From the NCBI GenBank assembly GCA_030432295.1, contig JAUIHI010000039.1, positions 1-59,479 on the forward strand: a stretch of DNA of 59,479 nt. Direction: 5' to 3'. Source of the DNA: Anaerolineae bacterium (GTDB lineage Bacteria; Chloroflexota; Anaerolineae; Caldilineales; Caldilineaceae). The position numbers were made by a program, and so were the translations under genes. How positions within the stretch are numbered: position 1 is the stretch's first letter; each line of letters opens with the position of its first letter. Positions 54,273 to 59,282 of this stretch are shown here, one piece after another. The notes beneath the pieces are model-generated. The model was not told where the DNA came from, ran no database searches, and saw only the letters and a program-made list of their open reading frames with translations.

Positions 54273-55190
54273 TTACCAGCCCCGGTGGGCCAGCTTTTCA
54301 GCCTCAGGCAGGGTGTCGATATTGATGCCGACCATCGCTTCGCCCAGGTTGGCGCTGATCTCAGCCAGAATCTTGGGGTCGTTGTAGTGGGTGACGGCCT
54401 GGACAATGGCGTATGCCCGCTTGGCCGGGTCGCCACTCTTGAAGATGCCGGAGCCGACAAAGACGCCATCCACGCCCAACTGCATCATCAGCGCGGCGTC
54501 GGCGGGGGTGGCCACACCGCCGGCTGCAAAGTTGACCACCGGCAGGCGGCCCAGGCTGGCAGTCTCTTTGACCAGCGCATAGGGGGCGCGAATCTCTTTG
54601 GCAAAGGCGAAAAGCTCGTCCTCGTCCATTGTCTGCAAGCGGCGGATGTCGCCGTAGACGGCCCGGGCGTGGCGCACAGCCTCGACCACATTGCCCGTGC
54701 CCGCTTCGCCTTTGGTGCGGATCATCGCCGCGCCTTCGCCGATGCGGCGCAGGGCCTCGCCCAGATTGCGGCAGCCACAGACAAAAGGCACGCCGAATTT
54801 GTGCTTGTTGATGTGGTGCTCCTCATCAGCCGGGGTCAGCACTTCGCTCTCGTCGATGTAGTCCACGCCCAGGGCTTCCAGAATCTGGGCCTCGACGAAG
54901 TGGCCGATGCGGGCCTTGGCCATGACAGGAATGGTCACGGCTTCGATGATGCCTTTGATCATTTCCGGGTCGCTCATGCGCGAGACGCCGCCATCACGCC
55001 GGATGTCGGCGGGGACCCGTTCCAGGGCCATAACCGCACAGGCCCCGGCCTCTTCGGCGATGCGGGCCTGCTCCGGCGTCACCACATCCATAATCACGCC
55101 GCCCTTCAACATCTGGGCCAGACCGGCTTTGACCGCAAAAGTACCCTTTTCCACCTGGCCGTTTTTGTGGCCGTTCAATTCCTTGCTCAT
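54273..55190 (-). CDS. pdxS: Pyridoxal 5'-phosphate synthase subunit PdxS
   Basis: A 305-residue TIM barrel from ATG 55190. It joins ribose 5-phosphate, glyceraldehyde 3-phosphate and ammonia from PdxT to give PLP. The Schiff-base lysines are in [21 protein letters not shown] (upstream GLAQMLKGG) and [14 protein letters not shown] in VMDV and the C-terminal [26 protein letters not shown] loop are conserved. It is full length and leads the operon, with its own promoter. Confidence 0.97.
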
Positions 55191-55391
55191 TCCTCTGCTC
55201 CTGTTCTGAAAGTAGCCACTGATGGACACGGATAGACGCGGACGAAATTTCTCTGCGGCTCCGCGCCCCTGCGGGAGAATCTCCCTTTTCAGTGGCTGCA
55301 CACGGATTGTCTGTCCGGCGCGATCTGCCTGCGCCATCCCACGCGACAACTGCACTCGCCCCGTTTCTGATCTTCGCTGGGGTAGTTATCT

Positions 55392-55421
55392 ATTGTAACG
55401 AGAAAGGGGGTGTAAAATCAA
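55392..55421 (-). promoter_or_regulatory. pdxS promoter and leader
   Basis: Minus strand: -35 TTGATT (55416-55421), 18-bp spacer, -10 TACAAT (55392-55397). The leader of about 195 nt to the ATG contains an inverted repeat, AGCCACTGA (55214-55222) and TCAGTGGCT (55289-55297), that could fold in the RNA. No known riboswitch was recognised. The remaining gap to 55549 holds only a remnant gene. Confidence 0.6.
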
Positions 55422-55451
55422 CTCTGGGAAGGGCTGGGGGTGTTTGCGTCG

Positions 55452-55526
55452 TTATCGGGCGACGCGTTCAGGCAGCAGGTCGGTGGCTTCGGTAGTGGGG
55501 ATGACGTCGATCCAGGCCATACTCAT
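55452..55526 (-). pseudogene. Remnant of an AhpD-like peroxidase N-terminus
   Basis: A 24-codon minus-strand frame (start 55526, stop 55452) begins MSMAWIDVIPTTEA, which matches the opening of carboxymuconolactone-decarboxylase/AhpD-type proteins (M-A-W-I-x-V-I-P-x-x-E-A). The C-x-x-C catalytic part is absent. Full proteins have about 190 residues. It may be a decayed gene or a chance frame; evidence is a short match only. Confidence 0.35.
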
Positions 55527-55549
55527 ATCCACCGCTCAGTAAGTTTCGC

Positions 55550-55966
55550 CTACGGGTGGAAAAGCGGATCGGAGCCGATGCTGTCAAAGCAGTCATCGGC
55601 CGAGACGGCGTGGCCGATTTCAAACCACTGGTCGTTGAAGCGTTGAAAGGCCAAGTTGAAAGTGCTGTTGCCCTGGTATTCCATGCGGGCAAACTTCGAC
55701 TCGAAGGTAGGTCGAATGGCATTGGGGCCAACCACCCGATAAGTGGCAAAAAAGTAGAAGTAGCGCCCGCGCCAGTAGCAATCGATCTGTTCGATGTAAT
55801 TGAACTGGGGGTCATCGGGCGGCGGCTTTAGGTGTGCCGGTTTGAGCGTGGACTCGATCAGTTCGTCGCCACGGCGTTTGATTTCGTCTTTGAATGCGGC
55901 AGGTACAGCGAGATTCGATTTGGTTTTGGATGGGGTATAGACCCATCGCTTTTGTTGTTTTGCCAT
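55550..55966 (-). CDS. Small conserved protein, third gene of the nuclease operon
   Basis: A 138-residue protein from ATG 55966. It has a basic, proline-rich opening (MAKQQKRWVYTPSKTK), then ELIESTLKPAHLKPPPDDPQFNYIEQIDCYWRGRYFYFFATYR and a mixed alpha/beta end with FARMEYQGNSTFNLAFQRFNDQWFEIG. The pattern LKPxxxKPPPxDPxFNYI is one I have seen as a conserved bacterial protein of unknown function. It is 12 bases downstream of the DUF559-like nuclease, so it belongs to the same transcript. Confidence 0.65.
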   Translation of the reverse strand: MAKQQKRWVYTPSKTKSNLAVPAAFKDEIKRRGDELIESTLKPAHLKPPPDDPQFNYIEQIDCYWRGRYFYFFATYRVVGPNAIRPTFESKFARMEYQGNSTFNLAFQRFNDQWFEIGHAVSADDCFDSIGSDPLFHP

Positions 55967-55978
55967 TGGTTGTTCCAC

Positions 55979-56794
55979 CTAATCGTCAAAGAGACCCATT
56001 TGCTGGGACCCATCCGGATTCTTCGGATCAAAGTTCCTTGCTACAAGTCTTCCGTCGTCCAGACCAGCCAATCCATTCACATTCTCGACAATCGTCGGTA
56101 TACAATATTCCGCCAGTTCTTCCCGGATTTGCGGGGTATTGAAACGCAGCACTTTCCACCCGGCGGTCTTCAGCGCATTGTCTCGATAGTTGTCTTCGGT
56201 AGCCTTTTTGGGATTGGAGTGCCAGCTATCGCCGTCGGTTTCAATGTCAATTTTCCCATCTCTGCAATAAATCGCAAAATCGAGGGCAAAATCCCGCTTC
56301 TTGACTCGAACAAATTCCTGACGTTCCGCCTGAATATGCAGACGTTTCAATGCCGCCCACAATCGATCTTCCAATGGACTTTCGTCGTACAGATCGTTGA
56401 TCTCAACCGCCTGCATAAATTTTGCCCAGGTCGTTGAAATGAAGACGATCCGGCGTAGACGACGGCTGAAGATCGGATCGGGAAGCCTCTGTAAAGGGCC
56501 AAGATGCAGTTGATAATAGCGACGCGTACTCCGATAGTCGTAGGGCTGATCGGGCAGTAGTTCCCAACGAGCCTTTTCACTGATGCTGATTATCGGCGCG
56601 TAATAGTGGATGGCATAGGCCAGATCACCAAAGATTTTGGTGTGGTAAAATGCGATCCATTCCGGCGGCCAGCGGTTGCGCAGCCATTTGTCAACACTGC
56701 TTACGGGGATTCGATACCACTGCTGCTCGCGAGCGATCGTGAAATCCTGCAAATTATTGACGATAGCAACCAGTACATTAGATTCTTGTGCCAT
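55979..56794 (-). CDS. DUF559/Vsr-like nuclease with C-terminal clamp-binding-like motif
   Basis: A 271-residue protein from ATG 56794 (a TTG at 56854 is an in-frame alternative). Residues 1-140 have an N-terminal domain (LVAIVNNLQDFTIAREQQWYRIP...WIAFYHTKIFGDLAYAIHYYAP) with no name I recognise. The C-terminal part is PD-(D/E)XK-like: SPLEDRLWAALKRLHIQAERQ, FALDFAIYCRDGKIDIETDG (D...E-x-D) and DNALKTAGWKVLRFN. It ends QQMGLFDD, similar to the QL(S/D)LF sliding-clamp motif. I infer a DNA endonuclease recruited to replication forks. Confidence 0.7.
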   Translation of the reverse strand: MAQESNVLVAIVNNLQDFTIAREQQWYRIPVSSVDKWLRNRWPPEWIAFYHTKIFGDLAYAIHYYAPIISISEKARWELLPDQPYDYRSTRRYYQLHLGPLQRLPDPIFSRRLRRIVFISTTWAKFMQAVEINDLYDESPLEDRLWAALKRLHIQAERQEFVRVKKRDFALDFAIYCRDGKIDIETDGDSWHSNPKKATEDNYRDNALKTAGWKVLRFNTPQIREELAEYCIPTIVENVNGLAGLDDGRLVARNFDPKNPDGSQQMGLFDD

Positions 56795-56822
56795 CTCGCT
56801 AACTTTGCTCCGAAGATGTTGG

Positions 56823-57773
56823 TCAACCACCGACTTTTCTATAGGCCATCTCAATGAATGGTTTTGTTATCTCAAAATCGGCATCGTTTTTTACAGTAAA
56901 TTCGGCATCCCCCGTCCCATAATGCCCAATGTCGGTCACATCCCGGTAATTAGGTGGCGGGTGTAGAACATCGCCCTGCTTCAACTTGAGATAAAGCGTA
57001 ATATGCTGCTTACGGACTTCCATACATACGATATTTTGTGAAATCTTGTAAGCCACATAGAACTTTTTGGGGCTTTCCTCAATTCCTGAATCCAGACTAA
57101 AAATATATTCCTGAATAGCAATCACCAGTTCACGAATTTTCGGTGTTTTACCTTCGATATGCTGATCAAAGGTGTAATTTCCTGTGGCTCTGGTCAGAGC
57201 AGCCTTTTTCCCCGCTTCCACCATTACCGGATTTTTGGCCGAACCTTCGATGAGTGGTTCGATATTCGTGTTTTCGGTGGGATAAGTTTGGCGGTAGACT
57301 TCTTCAAAGTAGATCGTAGAATTCAAAAACAGACGATAACGCCATAGTTCAATATTTGCTCCCATCACCTGTACTGCATGCAGGTCATATTTTTTGTACC
57401 CGGGAGCAATGCAGATCACTCGAACATCAGACCAATCAACTTCAATATCTGCGCCCAAACTTTTCATGGCAGCAATCTCAAAGTCGCCGCGGTGATCGTG
57501 AATCCATGACAAGTAGAATAAACTCTGATTGATCAATTCGGAAGACTCGATCTTCTTGTACTCAATAATCACTGGATTGTTGTCTTCGGAAAGTGCAAGT
57601 GTATCAATCCTACCTGCATGTTTCGCGCCAGTAGAGAATTCCGTAGCCACAAACCGGCAATTGAAGATAGCAATAAGACTTTTTTCCACCATTCGCTGGA
57701 GCATTTTTTCAGATTCGAAATTTGTCTGCTCAATGGCGTCCATTCCATTCTCACGAATGCTAAATAGTGGCAC
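56823..57773 (-). CDS. NucS-like/DUF5655 restriction-type endonuclease
   Basis: A 316-residue protein from GTG 57773, with GGGAGA eight bases before. The N-terminal half has a PD-(D/E)XK core, GRIDTLALSEDNNPVIIEYKKIESSELINQSLFYLSWI, in which D, E and K are all present (D-T-L...E-Y-K-K). The C-terminal 130 residues (TPKIRELVIAIQEYIFSLDSGIEESPKKFYVAYKI...VCMEVRKQHITLYLKL) fit DUF5655. It heads the three-gene minus-strand operon; its AT-richer composition differs from its neighbours, which suggests transfer. Confidence 0.75.
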   Translation of the reverse strand: MPLFSIRENGMDAIEQTNFESEKMLQRMVEKSLIAIFNCRFVATEFSTGAKHAGRIDTLALSEDNNPVIIEYKKIESSELINQSLFYLSWIHDHRGDFEIAAMKSLGADIEVDWSDVRVICIAPGYKKYDLHAVQVMGANIELWRYRLFLNSTIYFEEVYRQTYPTENTNIEPLIEGSAKNPVMVEAGKKAALTRATGNYTFDQHIEGKTPKIRELVIAIQEYIFSLDSGIEESPKKFYVAYKISQNIVCMEVRKQHITLYLKLKQGDVLHPPPNYRDVTDIGHYGTGDAEFTVKNDADFEITKPFIEMAYRKVGG

Positions 57774-57882
57774 GAGGAAATCTCCCTGATGAAGTGAAAA
57801 TAGTCAGCAAAAAAACATCCCAACCATTCTACACCCCTTACGCCCACCCTGCAACCAACAAAAAAGGGGTAAGAAGCACCTG

Positions 57883-57927
57883 CCTCTCACCCCTTCACCT
57901 TGTCCTCTTGTCATCCCGTCATCCCCA
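57883..57927. repeat. Word-repeat array, 8-nt CACCTTGT type
   Basis: CACCCCTT/CACCTTGT/CCTCTTGT/CATCCCGT/CATCCCC is an 8-nt series directly beside the stop of the PmbA-like gene. It matches the array between pdxS and pdxT. Only one arm is present. Confidence 0.7.
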
Positions 57928-57929
57928 CC

Positions 57930-59282
57930 TCACCCACTCCCGCCAATCATCACCCCGTCCACCCGAATCGTCGGGGACCCCAGCGCGCCGAACATCGGCA
58001 CAAATGTGAGATCGTTGCCCACCGCGGAGACGTTGCGCAGCAGGTCCTGCAGGGAGATGGCAATCGTCACCTCATTGACCGGATGGCTGAGTTTGCCCCC
58101 TTCGATCCAATAGCCTTTGGCCGAGACCGAATAGTCGCCGCTGATGGGGTTGATGCTGGCCGTATTCATCACCGTCTCCACATACAGGCCGTTCGCCACC
58201 CCCGCGATGACCTCCTCGGCGCTCTGGGGGCCGGGCTGGAAGTAGAAGTTGCTGGCCGCGAGACCGGGCAGCCCCGCGTGGCTGGAACGGCTGGCGTTGC
58301 CCGTGCTGCTGGCTGTGCCGTCCCGGGTGGCGGTGTAGTGGTCGTGGAGCACAGCCTGGAAGACCCCCTCGTCGATGAGCCGGGTGGCGCTGGTGGGCAC
58401 GCCCTCGTCGTCAAAGGGACGAGTGGCCACGCCGCCAGCCAGCCGCCCGTTGTCCAACAGCGTCACCATATCCGACGCCACTGTCTGGCCCTGCTTGCCC
58501 TGCAAAAAGGAGCGGTTGCGCTGGATGGCGTCCGCGCCCAATGCGCGGGAGAGCGCACCGGCAATCGAGACCGCGGCCAGGGGCGAGTAGACGACCGTCG
58601 CACTCTGGGTGGGCACAGGCTTGCCGCCCAGCATCGACACCGCTTTGCGGCCCGCGTCCTGGCCCACCGCGTCGGGATCAAAATCGGCCAGCCGGGAGAC
58701 AATCGAAAAGCCAAAGGCCATCGACCGGTCGTTCTCGTCCGCCGCCATTGCCATTGTAAAACCGCCCACCACCGCTTTGTCATAGCTGCCCGCCACGCCG
58801 TTGGTGTTGGCAATGGCGACGGTCCCGCTTTGGCTGAGGAGGGTGCAGCGGTTGGTCAGCACCACCCGCGGATCGTAGCCCAGCGCGGCCTGCTCGATGC
58901 GTTTTGCCATCGCCACCTTCTCTTCGATGGACAGTGAGACAATCGCTGGATCGTAGATTTCCAGATCCTCGTCGGCGACGGGCTGGGCCGCGGGCAGTGT
59001 ACGGAATTCGTCACCGTCAGCCACTTCGGCCAGGGCAATGGCCGCGTCAATCGTGTGTGTCAGGCTGGCCGAGGAAAAGTCGGAAGTGTAGGCGTAGCCC
59101 ATCTTCCCCTCCCGGATCACCCGCACCCCAATCCCTTTGCTCCCCGCGTGGGAAAGTTTTTCCACCTGGCCCCGGTCCACCGTAATCTCCGAGTTCTGCC
59201 CCACATTGACAAACGCCTCTGCCGCCACACCCCGTGCGCCGGCCTGGGACACAACAGATTCGGCGAGTTTGAGATAGTTCAT
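57930..59282 (-). CDS. TldD/PmbA-family protein, PmbA (TldE)-like
   Basis: A 450-residue protein. N-terminal AEAFVNVGQNSEITVDRGQVEKLSHAGSKGIGVRVI and C-terminal SGDYSVSAKGYWIEGGKLSHPVNEVTIAISLQDLL are typical of the family. The HExxxH zinc motif of TldD is missing, and the middle of the protein carries the TldE-type PGPQSAEEVIAGVANGLYV. TldD-TldE pairs cleave unfolded peptides, mature microcins and degrade CcdA. A separate TldD copy should exist elsewhere. No terminator but a word-repeat array follows. Confidence 0.85.
   Translation of the reverse strand: MNYLKLAESVVSQAGARGVAAEAFVNVGQNSEITVDRGQVEKLSHAGSKGIGVRVIREGKMGYAYTSDFSSASLTHTIDAAIALAEVADGDEFRTLPAAQPVADEDLEIYDPAIVSLSIEEKVAMAKRIEQAALGYDPRVVLTNRCTLLSQSGTVAIANTNGVAGSYDKAVVGGFTMAMAADENDRSMAFGFSIVSRLADFDPDAVGQDAGRKAVSMLGGKPVPTQSATVVYSPLAAVSIAGALSRALGADAIQRNRSFLQGKQGQTVASDMVTLLDNGRLAGGVATRPFDDEGVPTSATRLIDEGVFQAVLHDHYTATRDGTASSTGNASRSSHAGLPGLAASNFYFQPGPQSAEEVIAGVANGLYVETVMNTASINPISGDYSVSAKGYWIEGGKLSHPVNEVTIAISLQDLLRNVSAVGNDLTFVPMFGALGSPTIRVDGVMIGGSG

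Follow-up and report, generated by a model that had tools for sequence, protein, structure and literature searches.

A Vsr-like nuclease family with a PUA-like domain and a putative clamp-binding tail in Chloroflexota, and its UvdE-linked sister clade

Three closely packed genes on the minus strand of an Anaerolineae contig (the window, 59,479 nucleotides from a 6.7 Mb genome) raise the question of whether they form one nuclease system or whether one of them acts on its own. An earlier note, made from the letters of this DNA, read them as a possible clamp-tailed defence or repair system of three genes. The present study reveals that the clamp-like tail occurs in every orthologue examined of the middle protein, P0002, but that the three-gene system does not stand. 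The packing itself is as that note had described: open reading frames lie on the minus strand at 55550-57773 (Table 1), with 28 bp between P0001 and P0002 and 0 bp between P0002 and P0003. An alternative TTG start of P0002 would give a 291-aa form overlapping P0001. The genes are also lower in GC than their surroundings, another point read correctly from the letters: 0.429, 0.498, and 0.534 for P0001, P0002, and P0003, respectively, against 0.597 for the window. This reduced GC, together with the patchy distribution described below, is compatible with gene transfer.

Table 1. Positions of the genes, predicted domains and tail motif in the window.
Feature	Position	Strand	Description
PmbA/TldD	57930-59282		Flanking gene of the trio
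P0001	57773-56823	minus	ORF, GTG start, 316 aa; probable NucS_C-like nuclease domain and DUF5655 (PADLOC PDC-S18)
P0002	56794-55979	minus	ORF, ATG start, 271 aa; PUA-like domain, Vsr-like nuclease and clamp-motif tail
PUA-superfamily-like N-domain of P0002 (predicted)	56390..56794	minus	~residues 1-135; fold match and conserved residues
Vsr-like PD-(D/E)XK nuclease domain of P0002 (predicted)	56063..56386	minus	~residues 137-244; E142, D172, E185, D187, D189, H192 conserved
Tail QMGLFDD of P0002, putative beta-clamp binding motif	55982..56002	minus	Residues 265-271; conserved in orthologues
P0003	55978-55550	minus	ORF, 142 aa; DUF3024
PdxS	54273-55355		Flanking gene of the trio

P0001 matches DUF5655 in Pfam (2.9e-8) and the PADLOC defence candidate PDC-S18 (4e-106), on which we found nothing in open-access papers; its own match to PD-(D/E)XK is weak and sub-threshold. 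Its homologue in a relative genome (G027) matches Pfam NucS_C (5.8e-6), and P0001 itself probably carries a NucS_C-like nuclease domain. P0003 matches DUF3024 (Pfam, 3e-14) and is without a nuclease signature in domain searches.

A single functional nuclease operon, that is, a new three-gene system, would be consistent with the one strand, the tight spacing, and a GC content that is below the flanks in all three genes. However, no homologue of P0001 or P0003 was found within ~5 kb of any of the 15 close P0002 orthologues whose surroundings we compared (some contigs end sooner). Furthermore, a close P0001 homologue was present in one of 100 relatives (G015, 66% identity), on a different contig from the P0002 homologue of the same genome. 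P0003 had good matches in three relatives; the best, in the same-genus genome G005 (74%), lies ~5 kb from PmbA with P0001 and P0002 absent there and PdxS on a different contig, and no complete trio was found in same-genus genomes. All three families are independently scattered. On the orthologue neighbourhoods and the separate scatter of P0001 and P0003 homologues, we reject the three-gene system as largely refuted and very improbable. The locus is a variable, rearranged place where independent genes gathered, and P0001 and P0003 are chance neighbours of P0002; next to PmbA there appears to be a site of variable insertion. As a separate observation, no same-genus genome was found to have the PmbA-PdxS junction (window 55356-57929).

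P0002 was aligned with 14 orthologues (45 to 64% identity), and its AlphaFold2 model (pLDDT 87.1, pTM 0.80) was compared with other structures by VIA-align, scored as Z. In the model, residues 137-244 resemble the DUF559-type NGO0050 (3hrl, Z 12.3), the homing endonuclease I-Bth0305I (Z 11.4), and E. coli Vsr (1cw0, Z 9.6 over 101 residues at 2.4 Å). The same protein matches DUF559 in Pfam (8e-9; 35.8 bits versus a cut-off of 20.6) and MTES_1575 (4.9e-9) slightly below the cut-off of that family. This region is predicted to adopt a Vsr-type fold with acidic and histidine active-site positions, and is presumably active. The likeness to the very-short-patch repair endonuclease and to DUF559 is one of fold; Vsr proper (TIGR00632) was rejected as the identity of P0002, whose score of 10.4 bits is below the cut-off of 97.85. 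To our knowledge, no Vsr carries a PUA-like domain or a clamp tail. Neither did P0002 match NucS in Pfam or NCBIfam.

Over residues 1-131, dozens of PUA-superfamily chains match the model with moderate Z (8 to 9.3) and an rmsd of mostly 3.5 to 4 Å. They include the EVE protein MJECL36 (Z 9.3), VcaM4I (Z 8.6), the YTH domain of Mmi1 (Z 8.6), and an ASCH protein (Z 8.4). The PUA-superfamily fold (EVE/YTH/ASCH-like) is the fold of modified-base readers. None of 15 members of the P0002 family matched EVE (PF01878) in Pfam, and comparison of the N-domain profile with EVE by hhalign gave an E of 0.16, with just four diverse sequences on the EVE side. Since no sequence match to EVE was found, the term PUA-like is used here at the level of fold: judging from the model at these moderate Z scores, the N-domain is predicted to have a PUA-type barrel (EVE/YTH/ASCH-like). 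At the same level, P0002 appears to join a base-reader-like domain to a nuclease.

The C terminus of P0002 reads QQMGLFDD, and the ending QMGLFDD remarked on from the letters is indeed present. Its presence in orthologues, proposed in the earlier note as a check, was borne out: the pattern Q-[LMPTK]-[SGTAE]-[LI]-[FL] occurs in all 30 orthologues examined, from many families, followed by D or E in 29. Q is kept in 30/30, L in 29/30 (I once), and F in 27/30 (L in three). When the last 40 residues were shuffled, Q..L[FL] was expected in 0.99 of the 30 orthologues; it is found there in 29, and the 30th has QMSIF. The linker ahead of the motif is poorly conserved (median ~0.33 for the commonest residue), and 0 to 27 residues follow the motif across orthologues. 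An orthologue from the same phylum but outside the class (L182) ends QLGLFDDLHGES. The final ~20 residues of P0002 have low pLDDT, in keeping with a flexible peptide. The bacterial sliding-clamp consensus is QL(S/D)LF (PMC9690074), and actinobacterial NucS ends in [EK][LY][TR]LF, which is required for DnaN binding and function (PMC8228993). By its sequence, the P0002 tail matches the bacterial sliding-clamp binding motif and would be expected to bind DnaN.

A class-wide profile search placed clamp-type orthologues, at a score of at least 332 bits, in 39 places in 38 of 396 genomes; below this, a gap extends to 271 bits, where a broad set of relatives begins. Some member of the family occurs in 338 of the 396. 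In a midpoint-rooted tree of the N-domain, the clamp-type sequences (n = 30) form one clade with a support of 0.86. In this group E142, D172, E185, D189, and H192 are kept in 29/29 and D187 in 28/29. The 52 sister paralogues compared have lost most of this conservation at the six positions (least at D172) and lack the tail, bar two pattern matches at chance level (1.8 expected). Thus, the active nuclease and the tail go together. Both clades keep W26, Y27, R28, P30, Y50, Y93, and F118 almost without exception, which makes the PUA-like domain the part common to both; for W26, Y27, R28, P30, Y93, and F118, this is as expected of a ligand pocket. The P0002 family is a previously undescribed Chloroflexota group in which a Vsr-like nuclease is combined with a PUA-like reader domain and a tail of clamp type, and its sister clade, lacking the active site and the tail, is a near-universal, unannotated protein in Anaerolineae.

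The sister clade is tied to UvdE, a UV-damage endonuclease. UvdE (Pfam 9e-45 and 3e-45) is encoded immediately upstream of the sister paralogue in the genome of the window and in others. Overall, 40 of the 62 genomes having both genes, from many families, have UvdE either as the adjoining upstream gene of the same strand or fused to the paralogue (one of the 40 with a gap of ~2.1 kb); several genomes encode the pair in a single open reading frame. No description of this link was found in the open-access papers searched, and a survey of EVE/DCD proteins (PMC7641849) mentions neither UvdE nor Chloroflexi. Resemblance to these Chloroflexota UvdE neighbours goes through the sister; in contrast, P0002 has an intact nuclease and the tail, its gene is away from UvdE, and no clamp-type gene was beside UvdE in the neighbourhoods examined.

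From the architecture computed at fold level, the conserved active-site positions, the conserved tail, and the association of the sister clade with UvdE, we infer base reading, nicking, clamp binding, and a role in repair for P0002. Specifically, P0002 may be a nickase for excision repair that reads base damage and is anchored to the clamp, built on a plan like that of NucS/EndoMS from unrelated parts; we give this reading a probability of about 0.5. P0002 would process DNA as an endonuclease acting on its own, with a function for each of its three parts. Its PUA-like N-domain would flip and read a base that is abnormal, whether damaged, mispaired, deaminated, or modified in some other way, and the Vsr-like domain would then nick the DNA next to it. 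Through its flexible C-terminal Q-L-x-L-F peptide the enzyme would bind the DnaN sliding clamp, which would place the cutting on, or activate it at, newly replicated DNA, most likely for the excision repair of damaged or mispaired bases. The catalytically dead sister form would serve UvdE. Since the sister clade is tied to UvdE, a repair role is favoured. A wider proposal, a hitherto undescribed Chloroflexota route of replication-coupled base-lesion repair in which one PUA-like reader family supplies both a clamp-tethered Vsr-type nickase and a nuclease-dead guide of UvdE, as a convergent analogue of NucS, is offered tentatively. Substitution for a missing MutS/MutL mismatch repair is not supported: MutS, the component surveyed, is present in 98 of 100 relatives, so there is no missing repair pathway needing replacement.

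Several observations weaken the repair reading. Clamp-type genes have no conserved neighbour and none stands beside UvdE; they are patchy (38/396), with more defence-type genes nearby than controls; the wide presence of MutS leaves no repair gap to fill; the N-domain gave no sequence match to EVE; and the best-known PUA-nuclease fusions are modification-dependent restriction enzymes (PMC7897488). P0002 could accordingly be a type IV-like enzyme of this kind, whose PUA-like domain reads modified bases of phages or plasmids, whose Vsr-like domain cuts, and whose tail directs it to incoming foreign DNA that uses the host clamp for its replication. The plan is like that of EVE-HNH and other PUA-nuclease restriction enzymes (PMC7897488), VcaM4I among the fold matches of the N-domain (Z 8.6). 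Unlike EVE-HNH VcaM4I, P0002 has a Vsr-like nuclease instead of HNH, a conserved clamp tail, and a UvdE-linked sister clade. Transfer is suggested by the patchy distribution, by the lower GC of several clamp-type copies, and by a closest relative that belongs to a different family.

The surroundings bear on the same alternative. Across those of 15 orthologues, no neighbour family recurs broadly beside clamp-type genes; AP_endonuc_2 sugar-isomerase TIM barrels beside two of them (L034 and L041) were considered as a conserved neighbour and look incidental. Defence-type genes (AbiE, HKD-Snf2, PDC-M05A, and Mrr) lie inside ~5 kb of several clamp-type copies, and a defence role is thus possible; in the window, the gene upstream of P0002 is itself the defence candidate PDC-S18. 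PADLOC matched 82 families among 94 clamp-type neighbours versus 4 among 94 sister-paralogue neighbours; these tallies are inflated, as they count families and not genes and a single protein matches a large number of models. The control, moreover, is a core locus. By our estimate, the real enrichment amounts to perhaps seven or eight proteins versus one or two, which is less than the family counts show. Clamp-type genes do reside in variable regions. Nevertheless, an enzyme that has to leave host DNA untouched would not be expected to attach itself to the clamp of its host, and the sister clade, which has this domain too, is associated with UvdE. Phage records likewise yielded no copy, and a phage origin of P0002 was rejected. 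Matches on viral contigs are confined to the DUF559 part or begin around residue 88, and none spans the whole N-domain; the 10 plasmid matches listed cover the nuclease part only. We regard restriction as the chief alternative to repair, but as less likely.

A selfish or mobile nuclease, using the clamp motif in the fashion of a transposase to reach replication forks, is a further alternative, to which the similarity of the nuclease domain to I-Bth0305I and the patchy distribution would lend themselves. Clamp motifs are used by transposases (PMC4549789). However, no transposase or common flanking element recurs beside the copies, and the N-domain is common to a near-universal chromosomal sister, leaving this alternative improbable.

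Among the closest known systems is EndoMS/NucS of Actinobacteria and Archaea, which likewise has an N-terminal recognition domain, a C-terminal PD-(D/E)XK-type nuclease, and a C-terminal clamp motif (PMC8228993). In contrast, the P0002 nuclease matches the Vsr/DUF559 group and its N-domain is PUA-like, and hosts of the P0002 family also have MutS, which NucS-reliant Actinobacteria do not. If the repair reading is correct, P0002 would be the second bacterial enzyme, after NucS, that joins recognition and nuclease in a single chain and is activated by the sliding clamp. PUA-type base readers are familiar from RNA biology and restriction, and the reading would suggest that they serve DNA damage repair too. 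The UvdE link offers a directly testable handle on the workings of the sister protein.

Some members of the family deserve separate mention. In the Caldilineaceae genome G015 (JAGRCP010000005.1; L038 / L032), an in-frame TAG interrupts the N-terminal part of the clamp-type copy, reflecting either a broken gene or a sequencing error. A PUA-like protein without an intact nuclease (L176:2969-3604, G078) ends SPHQLRLFEQAAHW, a possible clamp motif seen in a single case and near chance level. One genome (G189) holds two different clamp-type genes, on contigs C217 and C16. Stand-alone PUA-like sisters of ~170 aa from several Anaerolineae families (L159, L162, L166, and L178) share a C-terminal motif of about [RQK]FV[TKI]L[MK][DE].
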